A stretch of 64,000 nt of DNA from contig CAJNDT010003190.1 in NCBI GenBank assembly GCA_905221615.1, forward strand, positions 124,001-188,000, written 5' to 3'. The notes beneath the pieces are model-generated. The model was not told the origin of the DNA and searched no databases. It saw only the letters and a list, made by a program, of their open reading frames with translations. Below, piece after piece: positions 30,304-51,423 of this stretch. This stretch comes from Symbiodinium sp. CCMP2592. Taxonomy: Eukaryota > Sar > Dinophyceae > Suessiales > Symbiodiniaceae. Made by a program: the position numbers and the translations under genes. How positions within the stretch are numbered: position 1 is the first letter of the stretch; each line of letters opens with the position of its first letter.

Positions 30304-30363
30304 CACTGTGTTGTTGCTGTTGCTGTCGCTGTTGTTGTTGTTGCTGTTGCTGTTGCTGTTGGT
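30304..30363. repeat. (TTGCTG)n microsatellite, 5' target flank of the retroelement
   Basis: TTGTTGCTG repeats end in TGTTGCTGTTGGT (30351-30363), which is repeated exactly at 40408-40420 beyond the coding block. Confidence 0.8.
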
Positions 30364-30381
30364 AAGCCTCTCGGCTCAGGA
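30364..30381 (+). other. possible spliced-leader relic at the 5' end of the retroelement
   Basis: The first bases after the direct repeat, AAGCCTCTCGGCTCAGG, resemble the 3' part of the dinoflagellate spliced leader (AGCCATTTTGGCTCAAG), matching AGCC, GGCTCA and the final G. Such relics are known in retroposed dinoflagellate genes. The match is imperfect. Confidence 0.25.
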
Positions 30382-30549
30382 AAGGTCAGGCTAGTACAGT
30401 TGCCTTTTTCCTTTCTTGCCATGGCATTTGTCAGCGCCTGAGCAGTCCCGGTCCCAAGTCCGGGAGGGAGTATTAGATCTACAGCTCTCTAACATCTCCC
30501 AGAGGTGAGGGTTGTCGGTATTGCGAAGCCGACAGGAGCCGTACTCAAC

Positions 30550-33500
30550 ATGAGTGCTGCGAAACAGCCTAGTGGTTCGACCAAGCATCAGCCCGTTCCT
30601 AAAGGGAAGGGTAAACGCTCTTATCAAAGGGCAGCACGTAAAGCTCTGCTTGAAGGTAGTGCGGTCTACAAGGGAAGGACGATGTCGTCAACAGAGCTTG
30701 GAGTTGCTCCGGCACATGTAAAGCCCACCAATCCCGGCAGAAGGACTCGGCCTTCAAAATTTACAGAAGATAAGAATCTCAGCTATCTATCCTGGAACGC
30801 AGGATCTCTCACAACAGCAGTTTGGGAAGAGTTACTCTCCGTACTGCAAAGTGCAGCATTTCAGGATGTGAAGCTGGTAGCAATTCAGGAAACACACTGG
30901 AGGGGCTCATGGCAATTCAGCAAGTCAGGTTGGCACGTGATCAGCTCTGGCTCCACAGGGGAGAAGGGAGCCGGGGTCCTCATAATGGTGCACTCCACGC
31001 TGTGCAAGTCACAGGATCTTCGCTACAACGAGGTTGTTCCAGGAAGAGTTCTCCAGGTCCGGGTGCCGAGCAACGGCATCTCACTGGACGTCTTCAGCTG
31101 CTATCAATACGTTTGGCGCTCTAAGGAGACTGTCGCTCAGAATAAGGAAACCCGGAAGCAGACCCTTCACGCCCTAAGTAAGTCCATCCGAGCTGTTCCC
31201 AATCGCAACACTCTCCTTGTGCTAGGAGATTTTAACTCCTCGCTCAAAACCGACAACAAACACGTAGGGCCATGCACGATCCAGGCTTGCAGACTCGGGC
31301 ATCGCGGATCTAAGGATCTCCAGACCCTACTGTCGGAGCACCAGCTAGTCGCAACCAACACTTGGGGAGTGCATAGACCAGCCACCCACGAACAAGGCAA
31401 CTCTGTTTCACAGATTGACTTCTCGTTTGTCAGGATTGCACAGTCCCAAGGCCCTGCCAGGTTTTGCCGGCCACTAAGGACCTTCCCAGTGGCATCCTGG
31501 AGGGATGGTAGTAGGCATTTCCCCCTTCTTGGTAAACTGAGGCACAGCAGGAGATACTCCGCCCAAGCCTCAAAACCCTATGACCAGCAGGCAATGGAGG
31601 ACTGCTACAGACACCGTTCCCCGAAAATACAGGCATTTGCCAGGGAGGTAGACTCCCTCCTTCAGGATCATCCCCAAACCTGGCAGAGTCTCCATCAAGC
31701 AATGAACTCAGCCCTCGCGACTCACTTTCCCAAGAGAAAGGGAGCAGCACAAAGAACAGATCTCAGCATTTGGGCAGAGCGCACAGTGTTGCGCTCACTC
31801 CCAATGTCAGTCAAGGTCTTAGCAGAGTTCTTGCCGGAGTTGCAGGTCCGAATGGTATTTCGCTGCTGGCTGTCGCTGTCTCAGCAAAGTGCACAGGCGA
31901 GGGTAGCAAAGCGTCAGAAGCAGGAAAGGCGACGACAGGAAATAGATGAACAACTCGAGCAGGCAGAGCTTAAATCCAAGCAAGACGGGAGTCATTCCCT
32001 CTACAAGGTGATCAAGCGCTTCCGGTCGGGGAGGCCTCAGGAAAGAGTTCAGCTACGTGACTCAGAGGGTCGCTTCCTAACAGCCAAGGAAGAACGTAGA
32101 CAATTAGAGGAATACTCCATTGAACTGTTTGGAGCAGGGGACGACTTCCCGCTCACAGGGATACAAGGCAGCCTGCACATCACCGAGCAAGAAGTTCAAG
32201 AACAGCTAGGCACTATAAAGCTTGGCAAAGCAGTTCCTAAAGAAAGTCCTCCCATAGTAGCTTGGCGCTCCCTAGGCCCCAACGCTATTCGGCTTATTTC
32301 GGACACTCTCAATAGGGAGGTCACTGCAGGAAGGCTTTCGGACAGCGTCACCTCGTCACAGATCTCTTGGCTCCCAAAGCCCCCCAAGAAGCCAGATAAG
32401 CCAACATCACTCCGTCCGATCGGGGTGATAGCACCTGAGGGCAAGGTCCTGGCAGGACTTGTGAGGCAGAGACTCAAGTCCACCCTCCATCAAGCAATGC
32501 AAGGAGTCTCTCAGTTTGGCTTCGTACCAGGTAGGGGCACAGAGGAGGCGATCTGTAAGGCCCTCACACATGTGGATCAGGCCAGGTTCAGGCAGGCCCT
32601 TACAACTAGAGCGGCTGGTAAGGGACAACAGGGGCTTAAGCTCAGGGGCAGTCTCACGATGAGCGTTGACATGAGCAAAGCTTTTGACACTGTGGACAGG
32701 CTACGATTAAGAGAAGCCCTGGAAGCTGAACAAGCAGACCCTCTTCTTATAGAGGTGGTGGGCCATCTCCACATCAAAGCCTTGTACAAGATGACAGCCA
32801 GCGATCAGAGCTTTGAGATAGCCACACGCAGGGGAATCAAGCAGGGATGCAAGCTTGCACCTTCCCTATTCGCCTTTGCATCCGGGCTTCTCTTTAGGAA
32901 GCTCTCTGGAAAAATCAGCCCCCCCGAACTAGTTAAACTTCTCACCATGTATGCGGATGACAGCTTGATTCAGTCGCATTTCGAGTCTGAGTCTGGCCTC
33001 ATTACAGCACTAGGGTACTGCGACCTTCTTCTGGATCAATTGGTTGAACTTGGGTTCAAGGTCAATCCGTCCAAGTCAGCAATACTGCTGCAGCTACAAG
33101 GAGGTTCAGCCTCGACAATTAGGAAAAAGCTATTTCGCCAGGTAGATGGAGAGAAGTTTGTGGAACTCCCTTCGGGCAAGTTGATATCGCTGCGGTACCA
33201 GGTCCCATACCTGGGGGTCATTCTTTCTTATCATGACTATGAAATGAAGACCCTTAAACATCGGCTGTCATCCAGTAAGCTAGCAATGTCAGAAGTCGCC
33301 CATGCAGTTAGGAACCATCGAGTCCTATCAGACAGACGTCGTCTGTCAATTTGGACAATAACTGCGTGGGCCTCTGCTCTGTATGCCCTTCACGTGGTAG
33401 GACTGACACAGCAGGGATTGCAGAAGCTCCATTCACACATGATGTACCAACTTCGGTTTGTCCTGCGGAGCTACTCCCAGGAAACGAAGGAATCCAACCA

Positions 33501-35223
33501 GGAGTTACTCCGGAGAGTACGGATTCCTCACGTGAAGGAGCAGCTGCAAAAGAGGCTTACACAGTTCATTAAGAGACAGCAACACTCAGATCCTCAGCTC
33601 CTCCCACACTACAAGCTGCGCGCTGAGGCAATCAGCCAGGCTCTGGAAGGCCTTGCCATTGACTTCTCCTCGCAATCAGTAGAGGATAAGATCCTGACCT
33701 GCGGCGAGTGTGGAGCATGTCTCTCTGGTACCGGGGCACTCCGTCGCCACCTGCAGAAGGCCCACCCAGATTCGCAGCAAAGCTTGAAAGGACCCAGATT
33801 TGACCCTATTTTGCATTCAATGCCAGGGTCAGCAACTTGCATCGCCTGTAGAGCAACATTCCGAACAGTGTTCTCTCTGCGCAAACACGTCGAAGCTTCT
33901 ACATGTCCTCGGGTAGAGCTCTTGCTTCGACAGCAGGAAGAGCTCCCTCTAGAAGCCCAGAACCGGATTTCACTTACAGAAAGTCTACAGTCTGATGCTC
34001 AGGAAAATCCGGAAGGAGCAGCTCGAAATCCGGTGTTCCATGATTACCTGATGGAGCACTGTGCACTCTGCGGTCAGGTCCTTGTTGGTCAGAAAGGAGC
34101 CAAACAGCACCTAAACAAGCAGCATCCTGAAGTGATGGCCAAGCTTGAGAAAACTCTCCAACCAAGACTTGCTCAGTTCAAGGTCTTCTTTCACAAAGGA
34201 GATAGCTGTCGCTATTGCAAACTCCGCGTGGATGCCCCGGGTAGACATGCTCAGCAGTGCGTTCCACTACTGCAGGTGCACGTACTGCAGGAGGTAGCGC
34301 GTCAGCAGCTCAGTAAGCAGCCCCGAGAATATACTCGAGCAAGGCCCACGACCTCGGCGAAGACAGCCACAAAGAAGCCCACAGATTCAATGCCAGGTAT
34401 TCCCCTTCCCGAATTTAGACTGGAAGGCTTTCTCCTGCTAGCCAACACTCGCAACCACTGCTATGCCAACTCAGGTCTACAGTGTCTGCACTGGCTATCT
34501 GATCCCACAGAGGCGCCTTTTCACGAGGCATCTCGGATCAGTCTACTCGCGAGAATAACCCCTGAACACAGAGTCTTCTCGGAGCTCACCACGGGCTGGC
34601 TCTTTGACGGAGGACAGCATGATTCTGCAGAGTTCCTGCAGCAAGTGTTTCGGAATCTCTCTGCATCAAAATTTGGACAGTGGGAAACTCGAGCATCAGT
34701 TCCAGAGGGTGTGATAGTCGATGAAGAAGGGGGTTCTCCCATTCATCTCGCCACGGCGATCAAGCCCAACCTGCAGGACATGCTAGTGGCATGGTCGTCT
34801 CAGGAGCGCTCATGTGCTCTCATAGAAGCTGCACAACAGGTGTGCTTAGCCTTACCGAGATTTGCAGGTGAAGCAAAGGATCACAACTGCATTGCCATTC
34901 CACAGCAAGTTCAGATTCCTGTCTTCCTAGATCACACTTCCCGAGTTTCCTTCTGTACCTACACAACTGAGGCAGTAATCATTCACCTAGGCATGGAGGC
35001 CACTAGTGGTCATTATCGAGCAGCAGTACACAAACTAGATTCTTGGTATATTGGCGATGACTCTCACCCTCCTAGCCCCTGCACCCTTGAAGATCCCCTG
35101 CTGCAACAAAATTGTTACGTCATTTTCTTATCTCGCAGCGCCGTCTCTCACGAGCTCCACGCCGTAGACATTCACCCGAACAATGTCTCTGCAAGAGCTC
35201 TTCCAGCGAGCCTCGATGGATGA
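30550..35223 (+). CDS. retroelement polyprotein: endonuclease, reverse transcriptase, zinc fingers, USP protease
   Basis: I start at the ATG at 30550 (1557 residues); the frame is open slightly further upstream but only from GTG. Residues about 75-325 form an AP-endonuclease-like (EEP) domain with SWNAG (Asn83), QETHW (Glu114), GDFN (Asp227) and QIDF (Asp290); the usual terminal SDH is SRH. Residues about 605-900 are a LINE-type reverse transcriptase with VDMSKAFD (Asp707), GIKQGCKLAPSLF and YADD (Asp803-804). Four C2H2/C2HC zinc fingers lie at about 1051-1240. Residues about 1292-1530 are a ubiquitin-specific protease domain: NTRNHCYANSGLQ (Cys1304), GQHDSAEFLQ, SGHYRAAVH (His1488) and a following Asp pair. 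No RNase H was seen. It should nick DNA and copy RNA; a fused deubiquitinase is unusual. Its last 41 nt overlap the next ORF. Confidence 0.93.
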   Translation: MSAAKQPSGSTKHQPVPKGKGKRSYQRAARKALLEGSAVYKGRTMSSTELGVAPAHVKPTNPGRRTRPSKFTEDKNLSYLSWNAGSLTTAVWEELLSVLQSAAFQDVKLVAIQETHWRGSWQFSKSGWHVISSGSTGEKGAGVLIMVHSTLCKSQDLRYNEVVPGRVLQVRVPSNGISLDVFSCYQYVWRSKETVAQNKETRKQTLHALSKSIRAVPNRNTLLVLGDFNSSLKTDNKHVGPCTIQACRLGHRGSKDLQTLLSEHQLVATNTWGVHRPATHEQGNSVSQIDFSFVRIAQSQGPARFCRPLRTFPVASWRDGSRHFPLLGKLRHSRRYSAQASKPYDQQAMEDCYRHRSPKIQAFAREVDSLLQDHPQTWQSLHQAMNSALATHFPKRKGAAQRTDLSIWAERTVLRSLPMSVKVLAEFLPELQVRMVFRCWLSLSQQSAQARVAKRQKQERRRQEIDEQLEQAELKSKQDGSHSLYKVIKRFRSGRPQERVQLRDSEGRFLTAKEERRQLEEYSIELFGAGDDFPLTGIQGSLHITEQEVQEQLGTIKLGKAVPKESPPIVAWRSLGPNAIRLISDTLNREVTAGRLSDSVTSSQISWLPKPPKKPDKPTSLRPIGVIAPEGKVLAGLVRQRLKSTLHQAMQGVSQFGFVPGRGTEEAICKALTHVDQARFRQALTTRAAGKGQQGLKLRGSLTMSVDMSKAFDTVDRLRLREALEAEQADPLLIEVVGHLHIKALYKMTASDQSFEIATRRGIKQGCKLAPSLFAFASGLLFRKLSGKISPPELVKLLTMYADDSLIQSHFESESGLITALGYCDLLLDQLVELGFKVNPSKSAILLQLQGGSASTIRKKLFRQVDGEKFVELPSGKLISLRYQVPYLGVILSYHDYEMKTLKHRLSSSKLAMSEVAHAVRNHRVLSDRRRLSIWTITAWASALYALHVVGLTQQGLQKLHSHMMYQLRFVLRSYSQETKESNQELLRRVRIPHVKEQLQKRLTQFIKRQQHSDPQLLPHYKLRAEAISQALEGLAIDFSSQSVEDKILTCGECGACLSGTGALRRHLQKAHPDSQQSLKGPRFDPILHSMPGSATCIACRATFRTVFSLRKHVEASTCPRVELLLRQQEELPLEAQNRISLTESLQSDAQENPEGAARNPVFHDYLMEHCALCGQVLVGQKGAKQHLNKQHPEVMAKLEKTLQPRLAQFKVFFHKGDSCRYCKLRVDAPGRHAQQCVPLLQVHVLQEVARQQLSKQPREYTRARPTTSAKTATKKPTDSMPGIPLPEFRLEGFLLLANTRNHCYANSGLQCLHWLSDPTEAPFHEASRISLLARITPEHRVFSELTTGWLFDGGQHDSAEFLQQVFRNLSASKFGQWETRASVPEGVIVDEEGGSPIHLATAIKPNLQDMLVAWSSQERSCALIEAAQQVCLALPRFAGEAKDHNCIAIPQQVQIPVFLDHTSRVSFCTYTTEAVIIHLGMEATSGHYRAAVHKLDSWYIGDDSHPPSPCTLEDPLLQQNCYVIFLSRSAVSHELHAVDIHPNNVSARALPASLDG

Positions 35224-36082
35224 GAGCTTCTCCTCTAAAAGGGGAGAGGCCGCCCCCTCAGGAGGAGATTCTCCCCTGAAACGCCAACGCGGTGGAGTTA
35301 CTCCCCAGCAGGGCGGCAAAGGACAAAAAAGAGGGGGCAGAAGCAGGGGACGAGGAAGCGGAGGTCGAGGGCGAGGAGCAGCCAGAGTGCAAAACGGGAA
35401 CGGTGGAAACAATCACCAGGCACAAGGCAATGTATCGCAAGAGCTGCTCAACGCAATAGCGCGGCTGGCGCTCCGACATGATGAGCAAATCACAGCGATC
35501 GCCTCGGATGTGACATTCGTCTCTTATGTCCGAACCGAAGATCACTCGATCCTACCTCATCTTTACGAGGAGTCTCAGCGAATCAAGAACAGTCCCATCG
35601 GAATTCCTCCCAGGGCAGCTTTGACCCTGAAGTTTCTCCTTGAACTCAAGGAGAGATTGGTGACTACCAGCCGTGATAAGAGCATACAGGAGCGCCTGCA
35701 GAACGATGAGCTGATGACGCAGGACGGCGAATGGCCGTTCCTGGAGTGGAGCCCCACCGATCAGAAGATGACCGAGACGGTGGAAGACCCTCTCACCACG
35801 GCTCAAGTCGTTTCAGGCCTGGGGGACGCAATCACTAGAATATCCTCAGATCCGGAACACATCAAGCTCTTCAAAACCTCGCGGCCATTGACCGAAGGCA
35901 TGACGGGAGGTCCGGTCCGAATCCAGATCCAACTGTCAACCAGGGCGGCCACATCTGAACTGCAGGAAACCTTGCAGTCCTTAATTGGCAACACTGCATT
36001 TTCGCTCATAAACGCGGATTTCCAGCGAATGGGAACTCAGCCATCGCCGCTGGTTCGTCAGATTCGCGATTTGCTCTCCTGA
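35183..36082 (+). CDS. retroelement ORF 2, N-terminal part, RG-rich RNA-binding-like
   Basis: This frame of 299 codons starts at an ATG inside the end of the polymerase ORF, in the +1 frame. Residues about 36-73 are Gly/Arg-rich (RGGRSRGRGSGGRGRG), typical of RNA-binding tails; I infer a nucleic-acid-binding role as for LINE accessory proteins. The remainder (ELLNAIARLALRHDEQITAI onward) looks alpha-helical and globular and is not a family I can name. The same frame continues past the TGA at 36080 and is interrupted again by TAG at 36152, TAG at 36206 and TAA at 36347, before the open part at 36350-36949. So this may be the first half of a damaged 589-codon gene. Two GGAG-NNN-CTCC mini-palindromes lie inside, coding GGDSP and GGVTP. 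Confidence 0.7.
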   Translation: MSLQELFQRASMDESFSSKRGEAAPSGGDSPLKRQRGGVTPQQGGKGQKRGGRSRGRGSGGRGRGAARVQNGNGGNNHQAQGNVSQELLNAIARLALRHDEQITAIASDVTFVSYVRTEDHSILPHLYEESQRIKNSPIGIPPRAALTLKFLLELKERLVTTSRDKSIQERLQNDELMTQDGEWPFLEWSPTDQKMTETVEDPLTTAQVVSGLGDAITRISSDPEHIKLFKTSRPLTEGMTGGPVRIQIQLSTRAATSELQETLQSLIGNTAFSLINADFQRMGTQPSPLVRQIRDLLS

Positions 36083-36208
36083 TCTTCTCCAGAGGACAAG
36101 ATCTCTTCAGCTCTGCCCCACGAGTGGGCGGGACTGGAACCAAGAGCTCAGTAGAAGCGAAGCAAATCTTACGAAGAGGAGTTGCTCCCACCTAGCCCCT
36201 TGCCCTAG

Positions 36209-36949
36209 CATGCTCATGCTCGTGAGGAGATTGAAGCGTCTTCGACGAATGGCGAGGAGGCCCTCCCGCGGAGCACTGCACTCATGTTGGCACCGCTTGA
36301 ATTGCTGCACATGTTCCTCCATGACGAAGCTCTCAGGCTCAAAAGCTAATCAATTAGACTGTGGTTCAACTCCTCGACCATGTATGATCAGACGCCAACT
36401 CGACTGGCCATGATGCTGCTCCCGACGATAGCAGCGGTGCACTTTCTGCACCAGAAGTCCCAAGGTGTGGAGATACTCCCCTGGGCCGTGCTCACAGAGC
36501 TGCTAGAGAGAGTGAAGGGGCTTGGGCTCATCACTAAGGATGAGATCCTGAACCTTGCCGTGGAGATACTCCCGGAAGGTGGGATTCGAAAGGTGCTCAC
36601 ACACCTCCACTCCATATCGGGCATCGATGAATGGGGACAAATCCGGCACAGAAGACGAAGAGCCCTGGTCGAACAGGGGATGCAGTACCTCTCTTTGGTT
36701 CGCATCCACGCTGGAGACCTGCTTTCCCCAGCAAGCCTCGGTTACCACCGGTACGACTTGGAGATAATGGAACGAGAATCCCATATTACGGGATACATCG
36801 CCAAATATCTCCCTGCTGAGTACCAAGAGGCATATCAAGCTGATGTGCAGACGTTGAGGTCTCAGTTTTTTGCTGAAGACGGCAGACTTAACCTGGCCTC
36901 GGCGACGTGGGAGGTATCTTACAATCACCTCATGGCCGCCACTTCCTGA
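36209..36949 (+). pseudogene. retroelement ORF 2, C-terminal part, frame shared with 35183-36082
   Basis: The frame of ORF 2 reopens after the TAG at 36206 with protein-like sequence (EEIEASSTNGEEALPRSTAL, then LELLHMFLHDEALRLKS). It meets a TAA at 36347 and continues SIRLWFNSSTMYDQTPTRLA to a TGA at 36947. From the ATG at 36380 alone it would be a 189-residue protein. The helical C-terminal part contains two mini-palindromes coding VEILP. The simplest reading is one gene with four stop codons (all three kinds), hence a decayed copy. An unrecognised intron, or independent translation from 36380, are alternatives. The family is not recognised. Confidence 0.55.
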
Positions 36950-37362
36950 GCCAAGTGAGAAGAGGAGATGCTCCCTAAGCAAGAGCTCCTGTAACAAATA
37001 GAGGAGTTTCTCCCTCGTTAGGCGTAGAGCTGGCGGAGTTACTCCCCAGGGGTTTTTGAACTAGTAAAGAGTCACAGGTGGAGCTTCTCCCCTAGTTGGT
37101 GGAGCTTCTCCCCCAACGAGGGGTGTACAGCTGGTGGAGTCTCTCCCTAGGGGTTTTTAAAAGCTTTGAGTCGCTGCCTGCAATAATTCTGCCTGCACTG
37201 AGACACACTGAGCCAACAGCAATCCACCATCCGTGATGCAGGTCTCCTCGTGGTGGCCTGGAGCTCAGTGGCCTAGGCCCAGCTGCCTGCTTAGAAGCCA
37301 GCTTGAGCCAGCTTCAGCCAGCTTGAGCCAACAACCGCAGCTTTCTCTCAAGACTCAGCATC
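36950..37362 (+). promoter_or_regulatory. inter-ORF spacer packed with mini-palindromes
   Basis: Six GGAG-NNN-CTCC palindromes lie at 36964, 37003, 37035, 37080, 37101 and 37136. Two sit in a longer duplicated context, AGCTGG.GGAGT..CTCCC.AGGGGTTTTT. CAGCTTGAGCCAGCTTCAGC repeats follow at 37300-37330, just before the ATG of the Tpt1 ORF. A role in RNA structure, processing or translation of the next ORF is inference. Confidence 0.5.
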
Positions 37363-39324
37363 ATGTCCAGACCTGAGTCAACACAGGATCCCTCGTTTCA
37401 AGCGGAGTACGAGGAATTCTGCCAGCGACGGATACGTGAACAACTTCCGCATGTCACGTATCGCAATTTCCTGCGCCAGTGGAGGCGCTCCGCTCGTGCT
37501 CACGGCGAAAGCTATCCTGCATATAAAGGAGTCTCTAAAGGTACTGGTGGACAGGAAGAGCTGGGAAGCGGAAAGGGTGGAGTCACTCCCCCTCCTCCTC
37601 CTTCCAAGAAAAGAAGTACAGGGCAAAGCGAGGGTGGAGATACTCCCCCAGCAGCAAAGGCCAAGAGTGGAGATCCTCCCTCGGGGGACCCAAACACGGA
37701 AGCTGCGATCAAAGTTCTTCAGTCAGCTGGTTATACGCCCTTTCCCAGTCTGATCTCAGACTGTGATGGGAACATCACTGACCTGAACAATCACCGAATT
37801 ATGGTGACAGTAACTCAGCAGCTGCGAGATGGCCTCAATCAGGTGGAACGACCCTCCCCGGAGATAGCCAATGCTCTCCTGGAGACCTTCCTGGCCTCTC
37901 GCCGGGGACTTGCCAATGAGCCTCTGCAGCCGAAGCTTGGATATCCCACAGCTGAGGAGAATGGGTGGTTTCGATTTGAGTATTCCTCACCGAACATTCT
38001 TCCCGCAGGGGACAGCGAGGTTGCGTTCCACGGCACACACCTGGAATGTTTGCATGGGATATTGGCCACAGGCAGGCTACTACCTTCGACACCTGACCTC
38101 TCCGGCACGCGAAGCTTCGAGGCACGACCAGGAGTGTATCTCCACAGGATGTCAAACAGGCATCTTGCTGCCGGTTACAGTTGTCTGGTGAGGATAGGAC
38201 CTCGGCACATATTCGTGCGGCCCATGTTTGAGGTGGAGGCTGCGCACTCTGGATCGCAAAAACGTGGTAAGAAAACAAACCAACTGATATACTCCTATGA
38301 TGCAGTCAAAATCCGAGCGCTGCTACTGCAAATATCAACCAAGGAGACACTCACCTTAGGTGAGTACCTCCGAGAGTGGAGTGGCTTGTTGGAGATACCA
38401 CTGAGACAAGCACGGGAATCCTTCTTGGCGTTGGGATACGAACTGTCTGGCGAAGCCTCGTCAAGTGGAGTCAAGGAAGGAGGAGTTGCTCCCCTTCCGG
38501 TTTATGAGCAGGCGTCCAGCTCCCAGGGTGGAGTTACTCCCCCGACCGTGGCGTCAGAGATCGCCCACAGCTCAACAACGCCACGTAGCTCCACTATAGT
38601 GGCCTGGGAGGGCCAACCAGGCGATCTAGGGGACTATTGCACTGCCTCTACGAAGCCGGAGAGCAACTTCTCGTTCGAAGTCTCGAAGGCTCTAGCAGCT
38701 TCGCTCCGGCACGGACATAAACCCTACATCAGCGTCACTTCAGCTGGTTGGGCCAAATTAGAGGACGTCCTGAGATGGCCAAGAGTGCAGGCCCAGCACG
38801 CCACGGCAGGCGACCTCATGGAGGTCGTTCGGAGTAACGCAAAAGGCAGGTACGAGCTGGGCGATTGCCAAGGCCAGAAGTACATCAGGGCTCTGCAAGG
38901 ACATTCTCGCTCTGATGTGGACTCCAATGAGGTGTTGGAGGAACTCACGGAGGAGATGCTCCCCAGAATGCTGTATCATGGCACATTCTGGTCCTTGTAT
39001 GACTCCATACGCCAACGAGGCCTTCTGCCTCAGAACAAGATTTCCAAGGGCCGCGGCAAAGGCGGACGTGGCAGAGAGGGACGACAGCATGTTCACTTCG
39101 TCTCGGATCGGGACTATGGGAGACCTGGTGTTTCTGGATTCAGAGATAGCTCGTCGATGCTGGTGGCGGTCGATCCACGCAGAGCCATGCAGGTAGGGGT
39201 GCAATTTTTCCGTAGCAAGAACGGCGTCATTCTCACCCCTTCCGAAGTGCCCCCTTCTGTCATAGAATACTACCAGAGCCTGAAATCAGGTACTAAGTAC
39301 GGAGGCGACAACAGGCCGCTCTGA
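37363..39324 (+). CDS. Tpt1/KptA-type RNA 2'-phosphotransferase with an ART-like N-terminal half
   Basis: 653 residues from an ATG with no in-frame competitor. Residues about 437-645 match Tpt1/KptA, which transfers a 2'-phosphate left by tRNA ligation to NAD+. The segment contains LRHG (Arg449-His450), GWAKLEDVL, KGRYEL, YIRALQGHS (Arg509), YHGT (His539), HVHF (His576, His578), SGFR (Arg594) and RSKNGVILT. The Arg-His-Arg-Arg set required in known Tpt1 enzymes is therefore present. Residues about 200-320 (AFHGTHLECLHGILATGRLL, then GVYLHR) also resemble an ADP-ribosyltransferase fold, but the family is uncertain. Low-complexity linkers at 65-110 and 370-410 hold the mini-palindromes. The position inside the retroelement suggests RNA repair or NAD-dependent RNA modification serving the element; that is inference. 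It may instead be a captured host gene. Confidence 0.88.
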   Translation: MSRPESTQDPSFQAEYEEFCQRRIREQLPHVTYRNFLRQWRRSARAHGESYPAYKGVSKGTGGQEELGSGKGGVTPPPPPSKKRSTGQSEGGDTPPAAKAKSGDPPSGDPNTEAAIKVLQSAGYTPFPSLISDCDGNITDLNNHRIMVTVTQQLRDGLNQVERPSPEIANALLETFLASRRGLANEPLQPKLGYPTAEENGWFRFEYSSPNILPAGDSEVAFHGTHLECLHGILATGRLLPSTPDLSGTRSFEARPGVYLHRMSNRHLAAGYSCLVRIGPRHIFVRPMFEVEAAHSGSQKRGKKTNQLIYSYDAVKIRALLLQISTKETLTLGEYLREWSGLLEIPLRQARESFLALGYELSGEASSSGVKEGGVAPLPVYEQASSSQGGVTPPTVASEIAHSSTTPRSSTIVAWEGQPGDLGDYCTASTKPESNFSFEVSKALAASLRHGHKPYISVTSAGWAKLEDVLRWPRVQAQHATAGDLMEVVRSNAKGRYELGDCQGQKYIRALQGHSRSDVDSNEVLEELTEEMLPRMLYHGTFWSLYDSIRQRGLLPQNKISKGRGKGGRGREGRQHVHFVSDRDYGRPGVSGFRDSSSMLVAVDPRRAMQVGVQFFRSKNGVILTPSEVPPSVIEYYQSLKSGTKYGGDNRPL

Positions 39325-39583
39325 TCGTGAGGACCCTCACCTAAAGGTGGAGTCCCTCCCCACACTGATAATGCAGCTGCTCTCGCAAAAATCTATGTTA
39401 TGAGGCTGAAGGTCACTTCAATTTCATCACCAGACAGCAAGTATACCCCGAGGTCGCATGTGAAGCTCCGTGCGAAGTCGTGGGCCCGGATCTGCAAGTG
39501 AGTTGTCAGCCAAAAGTTTTCTGGAAGCTCTACTTGCCTTCTCGTACAGGCTCAACTCACCAGCTGTCTCGACTGTAGAAGCC

Positions 39584-40102
39584 ATGCCTGAAACACCGAA
39601 GAAGAGTGGCAACAGAGCGACCTCCCGAACCCCTCCTCCAGTGCGACGTCGGCCCCACCTATCCAGGTCGCCGCCAGCCAGTGACTCCATTCGGGAGTCC
39701 GACTCCGAAGACACAGCAGCCCCTAAAGCAGCCCCCAAAGCAGCTGGGCCTAAGGGCCCGCCGCCTCCGATGCCTGTTAACCTGTCAGGAAGTGGATCTA
39801 GCACAGATCGGACATCGGGACCAGGTAAGGCACCTGGAGTGCCAGCGAAAGGTGGAGTCCCGGGAGGAGTTTCTCCCCTGGGACCACCGCCAAAGGCTGT
39901 GACCTCAACGATCTCCCATCCAGGGACAGGAGAGCTTCATGTCACCAGCACAAGTCCGGCAGGAGTTGCTCCGCCATCTACAAATAGCAACAACGGGCTG
40001 GAAATGGCGCCTGGCCTGCCATTACTGAGTGTTTCATTGCCTCACCGCCTCTACTATAACATAGAGCTAGTGGTTCGTACCGAGCCTTCACAGCGAGGCT
40101 AG
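39584..40102 (+). CDS. retroelement ORF 4, disordered Pro/Ser/Ala-rich protein
   Basis: 172 residues from the first ATG (MPETPKKSGNRATSRTPPPV); the frame is open upstream to 39470 without an ATG. It is rich in Pro, Ser, Arg and Ala (PPPMPVNLSGSGSS, APKAAPKAAGPKGPPPP), basic at the start, with a hydrophobic C-terminal stretch (LPLLSVSLPHRLYYNIELVV). It contains two mini-palindromes coding GGVSP and AGVAP. After the TAG at 40100 the same frame is open for 69 more codons (to 40309), another possible sign of stop-codon damage in this element. No family recognised. Confidence 0.5.
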   Translation: MPETPKKSGNRATSRTPPPVRRRPHLSRSPPASDSIRESDSEDTAAPKAAPKAAGPKGPPPPMPVNLSGSGSSTDRTSGPGKAPGVPAKGGVPGGVSPLGPPPKAVTSTISHPGTGELHVTSTSPAGVAPPSTNSNNGLEMAPGLPLLSVSLPHRLYYNIELVVRTEPSQRG

Positions 40103-40407
40103 ACACTCTCGCGAGACAGCAGTGTGCAAAATGGACGTCGCCAATCAGTCAGCGATACATTGCAAATCAGCCGGTTAACTACTTCATTAGTGCCAGAGTC
40201 TGCAGCTCGAGTCACTGAAGACACGTCCGATTCCGACTTCATTGCTTGCAGCCTTGAGGGGCGGAGCGTGTGCGAGTGCTGTGTTAAGGCACGGCTCGTC
40301 ATGAAGTGACCGCGCGAGTAGCAAGCAGAGCAGCAGGTCGATCCCTCGCAAAGCGTGGACGTTAAGTTTCACCTCAGACAGTATCCTCCCGCTGCGTGTG
40401 AATGAAA

Positions 40408-40443
40408 TGTTGCTGTTGGTGGTTGTTGTTGTTGATCGTCGCT
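40408..40443. repeat. TTG/CTG microsatellite, 3' target flank of the retroelement
   Basis: TGTTGCTGTTGGT at 40408-40420 repeats the 5' flank exactly and continues as GGTTGTTGTTGTTG. Confidence 0.75.
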
Positions 40444-40594
40444 GTCCCGAAGCCCGAACTACGCAGAGGGTTCAGCCTTCTTCCGAAACGAGCCAGTATG
40501 ATGAGACCTGAAAAGGGGCCACACTCTCCCCGGACTGAGCATCCCTGAACAGCAACTAATGCTGAAGCTTCAACTGCCTACGTGTACAGACCAC

Positions 40595-49094: not shown

Positions 49095-51005
49095 TAGGGT
49101 TCGGGGCTCGGGGTGGAGGGTGTAGGAACGTTTAGGGTTTAGGGTTCAGGGTTTAGGAACGTTCAGGGTTTAGGGTGAGGGGTTTAGGAACGTTCAGGGT
49201 TTAGGGTGAGGGGTGGAGGGTTTAGAAACGTTTAGGGTTGAGGGTTTAGGGTTCAGGGTTTAGGAGCGTTTAGGGTTTAGGGTTCAGGGTTTAGGAACGC
49301 TTAGGGTTTAGGGTTTAGGAACGTTTAGGGCTCAGGGTTTAGGAACGTTTAGGGTTTAGGGTTTAGGAACGTTTAGGGTTTAGGGTTTAGGAACGTTTAG
49401 GGTTTAGGGTTCAGGGTTTAGGAACGTTTAGGGTTCAGGGTTTAGGAACGTTTAGGGTTCAGGGTTTAGGAGCGTTTAGGGTTTAGGGTTCAGGGTTTAG
49501 GAACGCTTAGGGTTTAGGGTTTAGGAACGTTTAGGGTTCAGGGTTTAGGAACGTTTAGGGTTTAGGGTTTAGGAACGTTTAGGGTTTAGGGTTTAGGAAC
49601 GTTTAGGGTTTAGGGTTCAGGGTTTAGGAACGTTTAGGGTTCAGGGTTTAGGAACGTTTAGGGTTCAGGGTTTAGGAACGTTTAGGGTTTAGGGTTCAGG
49701 GTTTAGGAACGTTTAGGGTTTAGGGTTTAGGAACGTTTAGGGTTCAGGGTTTAGGAACGTTTAGGGTTCAGGGTTTAGGAACGTTTAGGGTTCAGGGTTT
49801 AGGAACGTTTAGGGTTTAGGGTTCAGGGTTTAGGAACGTTTAGGGTTCAGGGTTTAGGAACGTTTAGGGTTCAGGGTTTAGGAACGTTTAGGGTTTAGGG
49901 TTCAGGGTTTAGGAACGTTTAGGGTTCAGGGTTTAGGAACGTTTAGGGTTCAGGGTTTAGGAACGTTTAGGGTTTAGGGTTCAGGGTTTAGGAACGTTTA
50001 GGGTTCAGGGTTTAGGAACGTTTAGGGTTCAGGGTTTAGGAACGTTTAGGGTTCAGGGTTTAGGAACGTTTAGGGTTTAGGGTTTAGGAACGTTTAGGGT
50101 TTAGGGTTTAGGAACGTTTAGGGTTTAGGGTTCAGGGTTTAGGAACGTTTAGGGTTCAGGGTTTAGGAACGTTTAGGGTTTAGGGTTCAGGGTTTAGGAA
50201 CGTTTTAGGGTTTAGGGTTTAGGGTTCAACGTTTAGGGTTCAGGGTTTTTAGGAACGTTTAGGGTTTAGGAACGTTTAGGAACGTTTAGGGTTTAGGGTT
50301 TAGGAACGTTTAGGGTTTAGGGTTCAGGGTTTAGGAACGTTTAGGGTTCAGGGTTTAGGAACGTTTAGGGTTCAGGGTTTAGGAACGTTTAGGGTTTAGG
50401 GTTCAGGGTTTAGGAACGTTTAGGGTTCAGGGTTTAGGAACGTTTAGGGTTCAGGGTTTAGGAACGTTTAGGGTTTAGGGTTCAGGGTTTAGGAACGTTT
50501 AGGGTTCAGGGTTTAGGAACGTTTAGGGTTTAGGGTTCAGGGTTTAGGAACGTTCAGGGTTTAGGGTGAGGGGTGGAGGGTTTAGAAACGTTTAGGGTTG
50601 AGGGTTTAGGGTTCAGGGTGTAGGAACGTTTAGGGTTTAGGGTATAGGGTTCAGGGTGTAGGAACGTTTAGGGTTTAGGGTTCAGGGTGTAGGAACGTTT
50701 AGGGTTTAGGGTTCAGGGTGTAGGAACGTTTAGGGTTTAGGGTTCAGGGTGTAGGAACGCTTAGGGTTTAGGGTAGGAGCGTTTAGGTTAGGGTTTAGGA
50801 ACGTTTAGGGTCTAGGATTTAGGGTTCAGGGTGTAGGAACGTTTAGGGTTTAGGGTTTGGGAACGTTTAGGGTTTAGGGTTCAGGGTTTAGGAACGTTCA
50901 GGGTTTAGGGTAAGGTGTGGAGGGTTTTTAAACGTTTAGGGTTGAGGGTTCGGGGTTCAGGGTGTAGGAGCGTGTAGGGTTTAGGGTTCGGGGTTCAGGG
51001 TTTAG
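49095..51005. repeat. TTTAGGG/TTCAGGG/AACGTT composite satellite, 1.9 kb
   Basis: The core unit TTTAGGGTTCAGGGTTTAGGAACG of about 24 bp, or 31 bp with one extra TTTAGGG, repeats about 65 times. Only the G-strand orientation occurs. AACGTT marks every unit. The edges decay through GTGTAGGAACG variants. Confidence 0.95.
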
Positions 51006-51423
51006 GGCTTGCTGCTTCGGGCTCTCTGACTCTTCTACTTGTTTGCGCATATTTCCGAGATTCAAAATATGCGAATCCGATACACAAAGATACGGCTAAG
51101 TCCCACTGCATGCAGCATGCTTATACACTCAGGAAATGCTTCCTTTGTGCTTAGGAGCTAAGTGAGAACTTTTTTTTATTTGGTTCGTCAGTCGGATATA
51201 ATCGTGGTGGAAAGAGCACGGATACGTTGGCCGAATTTAATTAACTAGTATCTTGCATGCGTGGTTTGAATAACACTCCAAGCACCTTCATATTGGCATG
51301 CTCTATAACAATACGCTCGCAGCTAGGCCGAGCGCGACCGCGCAGCCAAGCTACCTGTCAAGAAGGTACCTATGTGGATGCATGACACAACGTCTATCGT
51401 GGCACAAGGAATTGAAGGCTAAA

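Follow-up and report, generated by a model that had tools for sequence, protein, structure and literature searches.

A long interspersed nuclear element (LINE) of Symbiodinium sp. CCMP2592, named family A here, carries what is almost certainly a domain of the RNA 2'-phosphotransferase Tpt1/KptA. The element lies in a 64,000-nucleotide stretch of contig CAJNDT010003190.1 (assembly GCA_905221615.1, positions 124,001 to 188,000 of the forward strand), which was analysed as a whole and is termed the window. The domain forms the C-terminal part of ORF4, one of five open reading frames (ORFs) of the element, and it recurs in three LINE families of this one genome. Both its identity as Tpt1 and its residence in the element are as certain as sequence allows. 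What might a mobile element do with such an enzyme? The best explanation as a whole is that element-encoded Tpt1 would strip 2'-phosphates from re-sealed RNA, to which we assign a probability of about 0.5.

The Tpt1/KptA domain of ORF4

37363..39324, plus strand: ORF4, 653 aa (653 codons), with a PARP-like region followed by the predicted Tpt1 domain
38677..39240, plus strand: predicted Tpt1/KptA domain, ORF4 residues 439-626 (PF01885, E 1.6e-39)
38707..38712, plus strand: codons of R449-H450, putative tetrad residues by alignment to 6e3a
38848..38850, plus strand: codon of R496, putative tetrad residue by alignment to 6e3a
39082..39084, plus strand: codon of R574, putative tetrad residue by alignment to 6e3a
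38005..38154, plus strand: PARP-like stretch, ORF4 residues 215-264, with HGT at 223-225 and GVY at 257-259 (PF00644, 21.1 bits, below the cut-off of 26.7)

A preliminary description, made from the letters of the window, assigned the C-terminal part of ORF4 to Tpt1/KptA, and a profile search bears this out. PF01885 scores 136.2 bits against a cut-off of 26, covers profile positions 5-176 of 177, and is the sole Pfam family above cut-off in ORF4. With phmmer, ORF4 matches 14 distinct PDB sequences at E <=1, all inside residues 433-635; 13 are named RNA or tRNA 2'-phosphotransferase, the best being 7yw3 (E 2.1e-20), and the odd one is 6nyr, with the name Crov588. The notion that the domain is unrelated to Tpt1 failed against the profile, the PDB matches and the alignment to 6e3a, and the first and last of these rule out a Tpt1 look-alike.

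The essential tetrad of the Clostridium thermocellum enzyme is given as Arg18-His19-Arg68-Arg121 (PMC6333775). In the alignment with 6e3a, counted by hand, it falls on R449, H450, R496 and R574 of ORF4. The catalytic set proposed in the preliminary description was R449, H450, R509 and R594; all four residues are located where it had placed them, and the first two stand as tetrad members, but R509 and R594 give way to R496 and R574. R594 aligns with Arg139 of the Clostridium enzyme, a residue beside its NAD+ pocket; R509 is the arginine conserved in IRAxQGHS. As all six residues are present, 'complete-looking' is an apt term for the domain. The HGT motif of the NAD+ lobe is found at H539-G-T in the alignment, and a Gly/Arg/Lys-rich stretch, GRGKGGRGREGR, precedes the fourth tetrad residue.

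The element and its copies

30364..40407, plus strand: family A LINE unit of 10,044 bp, first letters AAGCCTCTCGG, last letters GAATGAAA; ends taken from 10 other copies and the target-site duplications
30351..30363, no strand: 5' target-site duplication TGTTGCTGTTGGT, part of a microsatellite of TTG/TGC repeats
40408..40420, no strand: 3' target-site duplication TGTTGCTGTTGGT

The genome searched comprises 1.098 Gb in 5383 contigs. Loci read are the window and 10 further A copies, the close copy L035, two loci of a diverged family A', three of family B and one of family C. Sixty-eight copies of ORF4 were scored, the best of 1101 first-look candidates; all are 98-100% identical across the full 653 aa, and the reading frame is without a stop in 67. 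The 10 fetched copies match the window as far as 40407-40444 and diverge from there; a single 3' end is common to all 11 family A copies. Eight of the 10 are full length, with starts at 30306-30362; one (C4998) is short at the 5' side (window-equivalent 34268) and the other (C5107) meets an assembly gap. Target-site duplications of 11-13 bp are present in all nine copies in which both ends are seen (the window and eight others). The 5' flanks of these nine, read by eye, end in T-N-N trinucleotide repeats of the TTG, TTA and TAG types, and the 3' flanks mostly continue as T-N-N repeats, with C3891 as the exception. Family A thus inserts into trinucleotide microsatellites. No long terminal repeats (LTRs) or poly-A were seen in the unit 30364-40407. 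The reverse transcriptase (RT), the region like an endonuclease of the endonuclease/exonuclease/phosphatase (EEP) group, the target-site duplications, the fixed 3' end and the lack of LTRs place it among LINEs of the EEP type.

Is Tpt1 tied to this element elsewhere in the genome? The RT search scored the best 124 of 2828 candidates, and the search with PF01885, in which 150 of 1550 candidates were scored, gave 152 matches. For at least 99 of the 124 scored RT places a listed Tpt1 match lies downstream on the same strand at 5.0-8.5 kb (median 6351; 6375 in the window). One hundred and fifty PF01885 matches were classed from their scores, frames and fetched examples, two further matches being left out; among the matches listed, at least 132 are A-type (A' included), 15 B-type, two C-type and one host-like. 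A scored RT lies upstream for 99 of the 132 A-type matches. Twenty-five RT places have no listed partner, and at six of them the sequence at the expected distance was inspected: four carry ORF4, one is all N, and one has neither a match nor N. One of the four spans the whole Tpt1 domain; in the other three the sequence turns to N at the domain start or ahead of it.

The preliminary description took ORF4 to be carried by a retroelement, and it left room for a host gene with no RT association. The first view holds, with target-site duplications that enclose ORF4 and an RT-Tpt1 pairing that repeats across the genome; the second does not, given this linkage and the presence of Tpt1 beside RT in two more LINE families. 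That ORF4 is a host gene, or lies beside the element by accident, has next to no chance of being the explanation, and is ruled out by the shared copy ends, the enclosing duplications and the recurring RT spacing (5.0-8.5 kb, median 6.35). That Tpt1 is borne by the element can hardly be doubted from these data. Family A is best explained as a young, high-copy LINE, apparently autonomous, whose own gene set includes a Tpt1 that is intact by sequence. On four contigs (C890, C5312, C459 and C980) tandem copies occur at about one element length, those of C890 at 314972, 325078 and 335184 (10,106 apart).

Selection on Tpt1

Ratios of nonsynonymous to synonymous change (dN/dS) were calculated by NG86. 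The diverged family A' (L036, and the C459 pieces L029 and L017) has about 80% DNA identity to A over 5.5 kb. Against L036 and C459, respectively, dN/dS of Tpt1 is 0.093 and 0.103 (dS 0.74 and 0.69), and that of the PARP-like region (residues 111-360) 0.074 and 0.070, the lowest of the parts measured; values for the ORF4 N-terminus are 0.35 and 0.25, and for the linker 0.35 and 0.37. In the comparison with C459 alone, RT fragments give 0.14 and 0.11, ORF2 0.13, ORF3 0.19 and ORF5 0.22. Between B copies Tpt1 gives 0.122 (L031/L032, dS 0.88) and 0.125 (L031/L037), and the part that follows it 0.245 and 0.291 in the same pairs. By these ratios, purifying selection on the element's Tpt1 is as strong as that on RT fragments. 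This is strong evidence of selection for function, and it is very probable that the domain has been selected for the benefit of the element.

Tpt1 in two further LINE families and at a host-like locus

The position of the domain differs between families: it is downstream of RT in A, and upstream of EEP and RT in B and C. Three loci represent family B (L031, L032 and L037). In L031, Tpt1 (1.1e-44) is towards the N-terminus of an ORF, which continues to an EEP domain (1.4e-10), with RT beyond (L039, 6.9e-22); in L032, Tpt1 (4.7e-51) is followed, by eye, by an EEP-like sequence and the beginning of an RT-like ORF. A search for the B-type RT (best 88 of 3035 candidates scored) places it 4.3-5.4 kb downstream on the same strand for 12 of the 15 B-type Tpt1 matches. 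It is on the opposite strand for two, at 4.2 kb on C5059 and at 2.5 kb on C4579, where another lies 16 kb off on the same strand; the remaining match (C5035) has no listed RT. The two opposite-strand pairs (C5059:245669-251304 and C4579:292445-295956) show the pattern that twin-primed 5' inversions would leave. Family C (L034 and L038, one locus read) has a second match of equal score at C3345. Its Tpt1 (1.5e-39) is encoded in an ORF that precedes EEP (3.6e-6) and RT (1.3e-18), and the ORF after RT seems to be a relative of family A's ORF2, by a MAFFT alignment at 30% that carries no E-value. Between the three families, RT identity is 29-32%. The active-site residues of both Tpt1 lobes are kept in A, A', B (in a second copy also) and C.

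A single Tpt1 exon (L033, from C4512; positions 809-1492 of L033, minus strand) is of another kind. It matches PF01885 at 5.5e-48, with 7yw3 as its best PDB match (E 2.3e-30), starts after the splice-acceptor-like tttttgcag, and is without the RH-bearing N-terminus. In the 2.5 kb fetched around it there is no other ORF of more than 167 aa, the remainder of the fetched stretch not being scanned for RT, and no upstream exon with the RH motif was seen there. It is likely to be one exon of host TPT1, at a locus separate from the LINE, which suggests that the host also has its own copy. Were the LINE domains captured once? A Tpt1 tree of 11 rows has a branch (79/86, not starred) with all of them to the same side. 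The approximately unbiased test does not reject topologies in which they are split, or in which A or B pairs with the host exon (p-AU 0.223, 0.145 and 0.232), so that one and several captures are indistinguishable. Searches of viral contigs gave 1 and 29 pattern stretches, with no relative confirmed among them.

Repeated motifs in the element

30448..30465, plus strand: 18-nt hairpin CCCGGTCCCAAGTCCGGG with a twister-like loop, identical letters in families B and C

The element holds 26 copies of the palindrome GGAG-NNN-CTCC, at sites that span 30700-39972, versus a mean of 0.35 in 100 first-order Markov sequences; the remaining 54 kb of the window has one. Twenty-two sites are within the 5.5 kb of A that is aligned to A', and 20 of these keep all eight stem bases (12/13 coding, 8/9 noncoding); for 8-position windows drawn at random the fully conserved share is 20%. 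Stem bases are identical at 96/96 coding and 69/72 noncoding positions, and loop identity is 81% (coding) and 78% (noncoding) against a background of 82% and 70%. The coding sites occur in all three frames. Fetched B and C loci hold 0-1 palindromes each. In family A the motif looks to be under selection as a site for binding or processing, acting as a hairpin or as a DNA site.

The 18-nt hairpin is found at position 3787 of L031, on the minus strand of L032 and at position 3554 of L034, and has 402 occurrences in the genome (control 0). A self-cleaving ribozyme at the 5' end was considered and rejected: Rfam Twister-P5 appears only below threshold, and no complete twister is seen by eye.

Other reading frames of family A

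30505..35223, plus strand: ORF1, 1572 codons from GTG (first ATG 30550); EEP-like, RT and zinc-finger-like stretches and a USP-type deubiquitinase-like C-terminus
30787..31419, plus strand: EEP endonuclease-like region, ORF1 residues 95-305 (PF03372, 17.1 bits, below the cut-off of 24.5)
32386..33222, plus strand: reverse transcriptase, ORF1 residues 628-906 (PF00078, E 4.9e-22)
34438..35121, plus strand: UCH/USP deubiquitinase-like domain, ORF1 residues 1312-1539 (PF00443, 32.3 bits; cut-off 23.9)
35183..36082, plus strand: ORF2, 299 aa, RGG-rich N-terminus; no Pfam family above cut-off; likely relative in family C
36380..36949, plus strand: ORF3, 189 aa; no Pfam family
39470..40102, plus strand: ORF5, 210 aa from GTG, Pro-rich; no Pfam family

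ORF1 is intact in six of the eight fetched copies that reach its start, ORF3 in 10/10, ORF5 in 8/10 and ORF2 in nine of 10, the copy on C269 matching only residues 27-299 at 82%. The EEP-like region is counted as EEP despite its low profile score, as it aligns to two EEPs that pass the PF03372 cut-off, the family B one with 41.7 bits (alignment 34%, E 2.9e-40) and the family C one with 27.3 bits (alignment 31%, E 1.9e-37). The zinc-finger-like stretches score below Pfam cut-offs. The C-terminus of ORF1 passes the cut-off of the USP profile and has a weak USP15 match (E 0.00078); NHCYANSG and GHYRAAV boxes were read in it by eye. Beyond the element, long arrays of telomere-like TTTAGGG variants lie within the contig, at 49117-51006 of the window, and at many other places. 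The dinoflagellate spliced-leader 21-mer has 217 + 212 exact occurrences in the genome (reversed control 0), which marks the genome as that of a dinoflagellate.

Possible functions of the element's Tpt1

A LINE requires a continuous transcript for translation and copying, and internal RNA 2'-phosphates arise where plant/fungal-type ligases seal broken RNA. In the mechanism proposed here, the ORF4 protein would enter the ribonucleoprotein of the element. RNA that had been broken and then re-sealed by a plant/fungal-type RNA ligase would bear internal 2'-phosphates, and Tpt1 would use NAD+ to remove them in two steps, forming RNA-2'-phospho-ADP-ribose and then releasing ADP-ribose cyclic phosphate. 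The substrate would be, in the first place, the element's own 10-kb transcript, and in the second, host RNAs. The product would be ordinary 2'-OH RNA, which could be translated, would not be treated as an unfinished splice product, and could be copied by target-primed reverse transcription. Transfer of an internal RNA 2'-phosphate to NAD+ by Tpt1 is described in PMC6333775, and in tpt1-deleted yeast the ligated, 2'-phosphorylated HAC1 mRNA is reported to be cleaved again and to decay abnormally, with a product that resists Xrn1 (PMC6456296). The KptA domains of +RNA-virus polyproteins (PMC9503650) make a general use to RNA-stage parasites plausible. We infer that the ORF4 domain is probably an active 2'-phosphotransferase with RNA as its substrate. 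The likeliest step would be one in which it uses NAD+ to take 2'-phosphates off the element's RNA, and the narrower proposal that the substrate is mainly element RNA is tentative.

Several points weigh against this explanation. Selection by itself leaves the substrate unnamed. The five ORFs contain no RNA ligase domain (Pfam), so a ligated substrate would depend on the host. The AlphaFold model has a mean pLDDT of 30.6 and is unusable for checking the fold of a winged-helix and an ADP-ribosyltransferase lobe. Tpt1 dN/dS is 0.16 between two A' copies, and 0.515 between the window and L035 (6.3 synonymous and 10.7 replacement changes), a value that includes a broken tail because the L035 frame shifts near its end; dead-on-arrival copies also raise dN/dS. 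In tpt1-deleted cells a primer-extension product apparently crosses the 2'-phosphate junction, in our reading of PMC6456296. This weakens a block to reverse transcription as the sole rationale, and since the enzyme apparently passes the junction, the explanation is not rested on a copying block. A bolder version, in which a class of retroelements cuts and re-seals its own RNA and the element's Tpt1 erases the 2'-phosphate junctions before target-primed reverse transcription, would be a long shot; candidate cleavage sites would be the GGAG-NNN-CTCC hairpins of A or the twister-like 18-nt hairpin common to all three families, and a host ligase would join the ends.

Could the chemistry be another? 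Together with the PARP-like region, the domain might be a nucleic-acid ADP-ribosyltransferase, adding ADP-ribose to terminal phosphates of element RNA or cDNA as a protective cap, or to host RNA. TRPT1 is described as capable of ADP-ribosylating RNA (PMC9458441), and the HGT...GVY stretch in the same ORF, although sub-threshold, lies in a region (residues 111-360) under selection as strong as that on Tpt1 (dN/dS 0.07). We consider this unlikely, as all tetrad residues required for 2'-PO4 transfer are retained and the stretch cannot be assigned to PARP: it is below the PF00644 cut-off, has no PDB match at E 10, and is absent at E 0.01 from the A' relative L036, which does show Tpt1, and from families B and C. 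Counter-defence would be a different use of the same chemistry. The enzyme would mend tRNAs or other RNAs of the host after the host's nuclease response had cut them, or else remove a 2'-phosphate mark, and so keep translation going during activity of the element. We know of no such host nuclease response in dinoflagellates and nothing in the data indicates tRNA, which leaves this a minor prospect. It is kept open because of the USP-type deubiquitinase-like domain and the PARP-like region, parts that conflict genes would have; a similar role was proposed for phage KptA (PMC9503650), and expression of Tpt1/KptA homologues in E. coli is reported to erase the Up47 of tRNA (PMC9095486). It is quite improbable that the domain is catalytically idle and was selected for binding by its winged-helix RNA lobe, given that neither lobe has lost its active-site residues in A, A', B or C. 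On the side of such a role, LINE accessory proteins often bind RNA.

Significance and comparison with known systems

Tpt1 is known as a host tRNA-splicing enzyme, in eukaryotes normally a small stand-alone host protein, and its retention in many organisms is an old puzzle. The eukaryotic Tpt1/TRPT1 structures 7yw2, 7yw3 and 7yw4 (presumably human, mouse and yeast) resemble ORF4 in the full PF01885 domain, the HGT motif and, by alignment, the tetrad. Unlike them, the ORF4 domain is the C-terminal third of a 653-aa LINE protein and contains the stretch GRGKGGRGREGR. The finding of Tpt1 in family A and in two distant LINE relatives suggests that these elements need RNA-cleaning chemistry. With signs of selection on Tpt1 in LINEs, and three families of one genome that carry it, the finding points either to 2'-phosphorylated RNA as a participant in some retrotransposition step or to an element-host conflict at the RNA level.

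The preliminary description knew of no LINE that encodes this activity, and none was found among the top-ranked results of the open-licence PMC literature, with Repbase reports, preprints and subscription journals outside that scope. In the main text of a review of dinoflagellate genomics (PMC11453091), 'phosphotransferase' and 'SymbioLINE' are absent. Selfish elements with an RNA stage that carry the domain have been described, as KptA is reported from polyproteins of +RNA viruses (Beihai picorna-like virus, Botrylloides leachii nidovirus) and from phages (PMC9503650). Unlike these, the present elements are endogenous LINEs, with at least 132 A-type Tpt1 matches in one genome. The LINEs reported to have an SF1 helicase (PMC6338049) are likewise non-LTR elements that acquired an accessory enzyme, but the enzyme and its chemistry differ.

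The nearest published system found is SymbioLINE-Dnmt, Symbiodinium LINEs with a DNA methyltransferase ORF (PMC5890265). As described there, it too is a dinoflagellate EEP-RT LINE with target-site duplications and no poly-A, and its enzyme ORF, from outside the LINE toolkit, is under selection (Ka/Ks < 0.2). The difference is in the enzyme: the five ORFs of family A have no DNMT domain (PF00145), and Tpt1 is found instead. The present elements extend the pattern of the DNMT-bearing LINEs, in which nucleic-acid-modifying enzymes are repeatedly taken up by LINEs of dinoflagellates.

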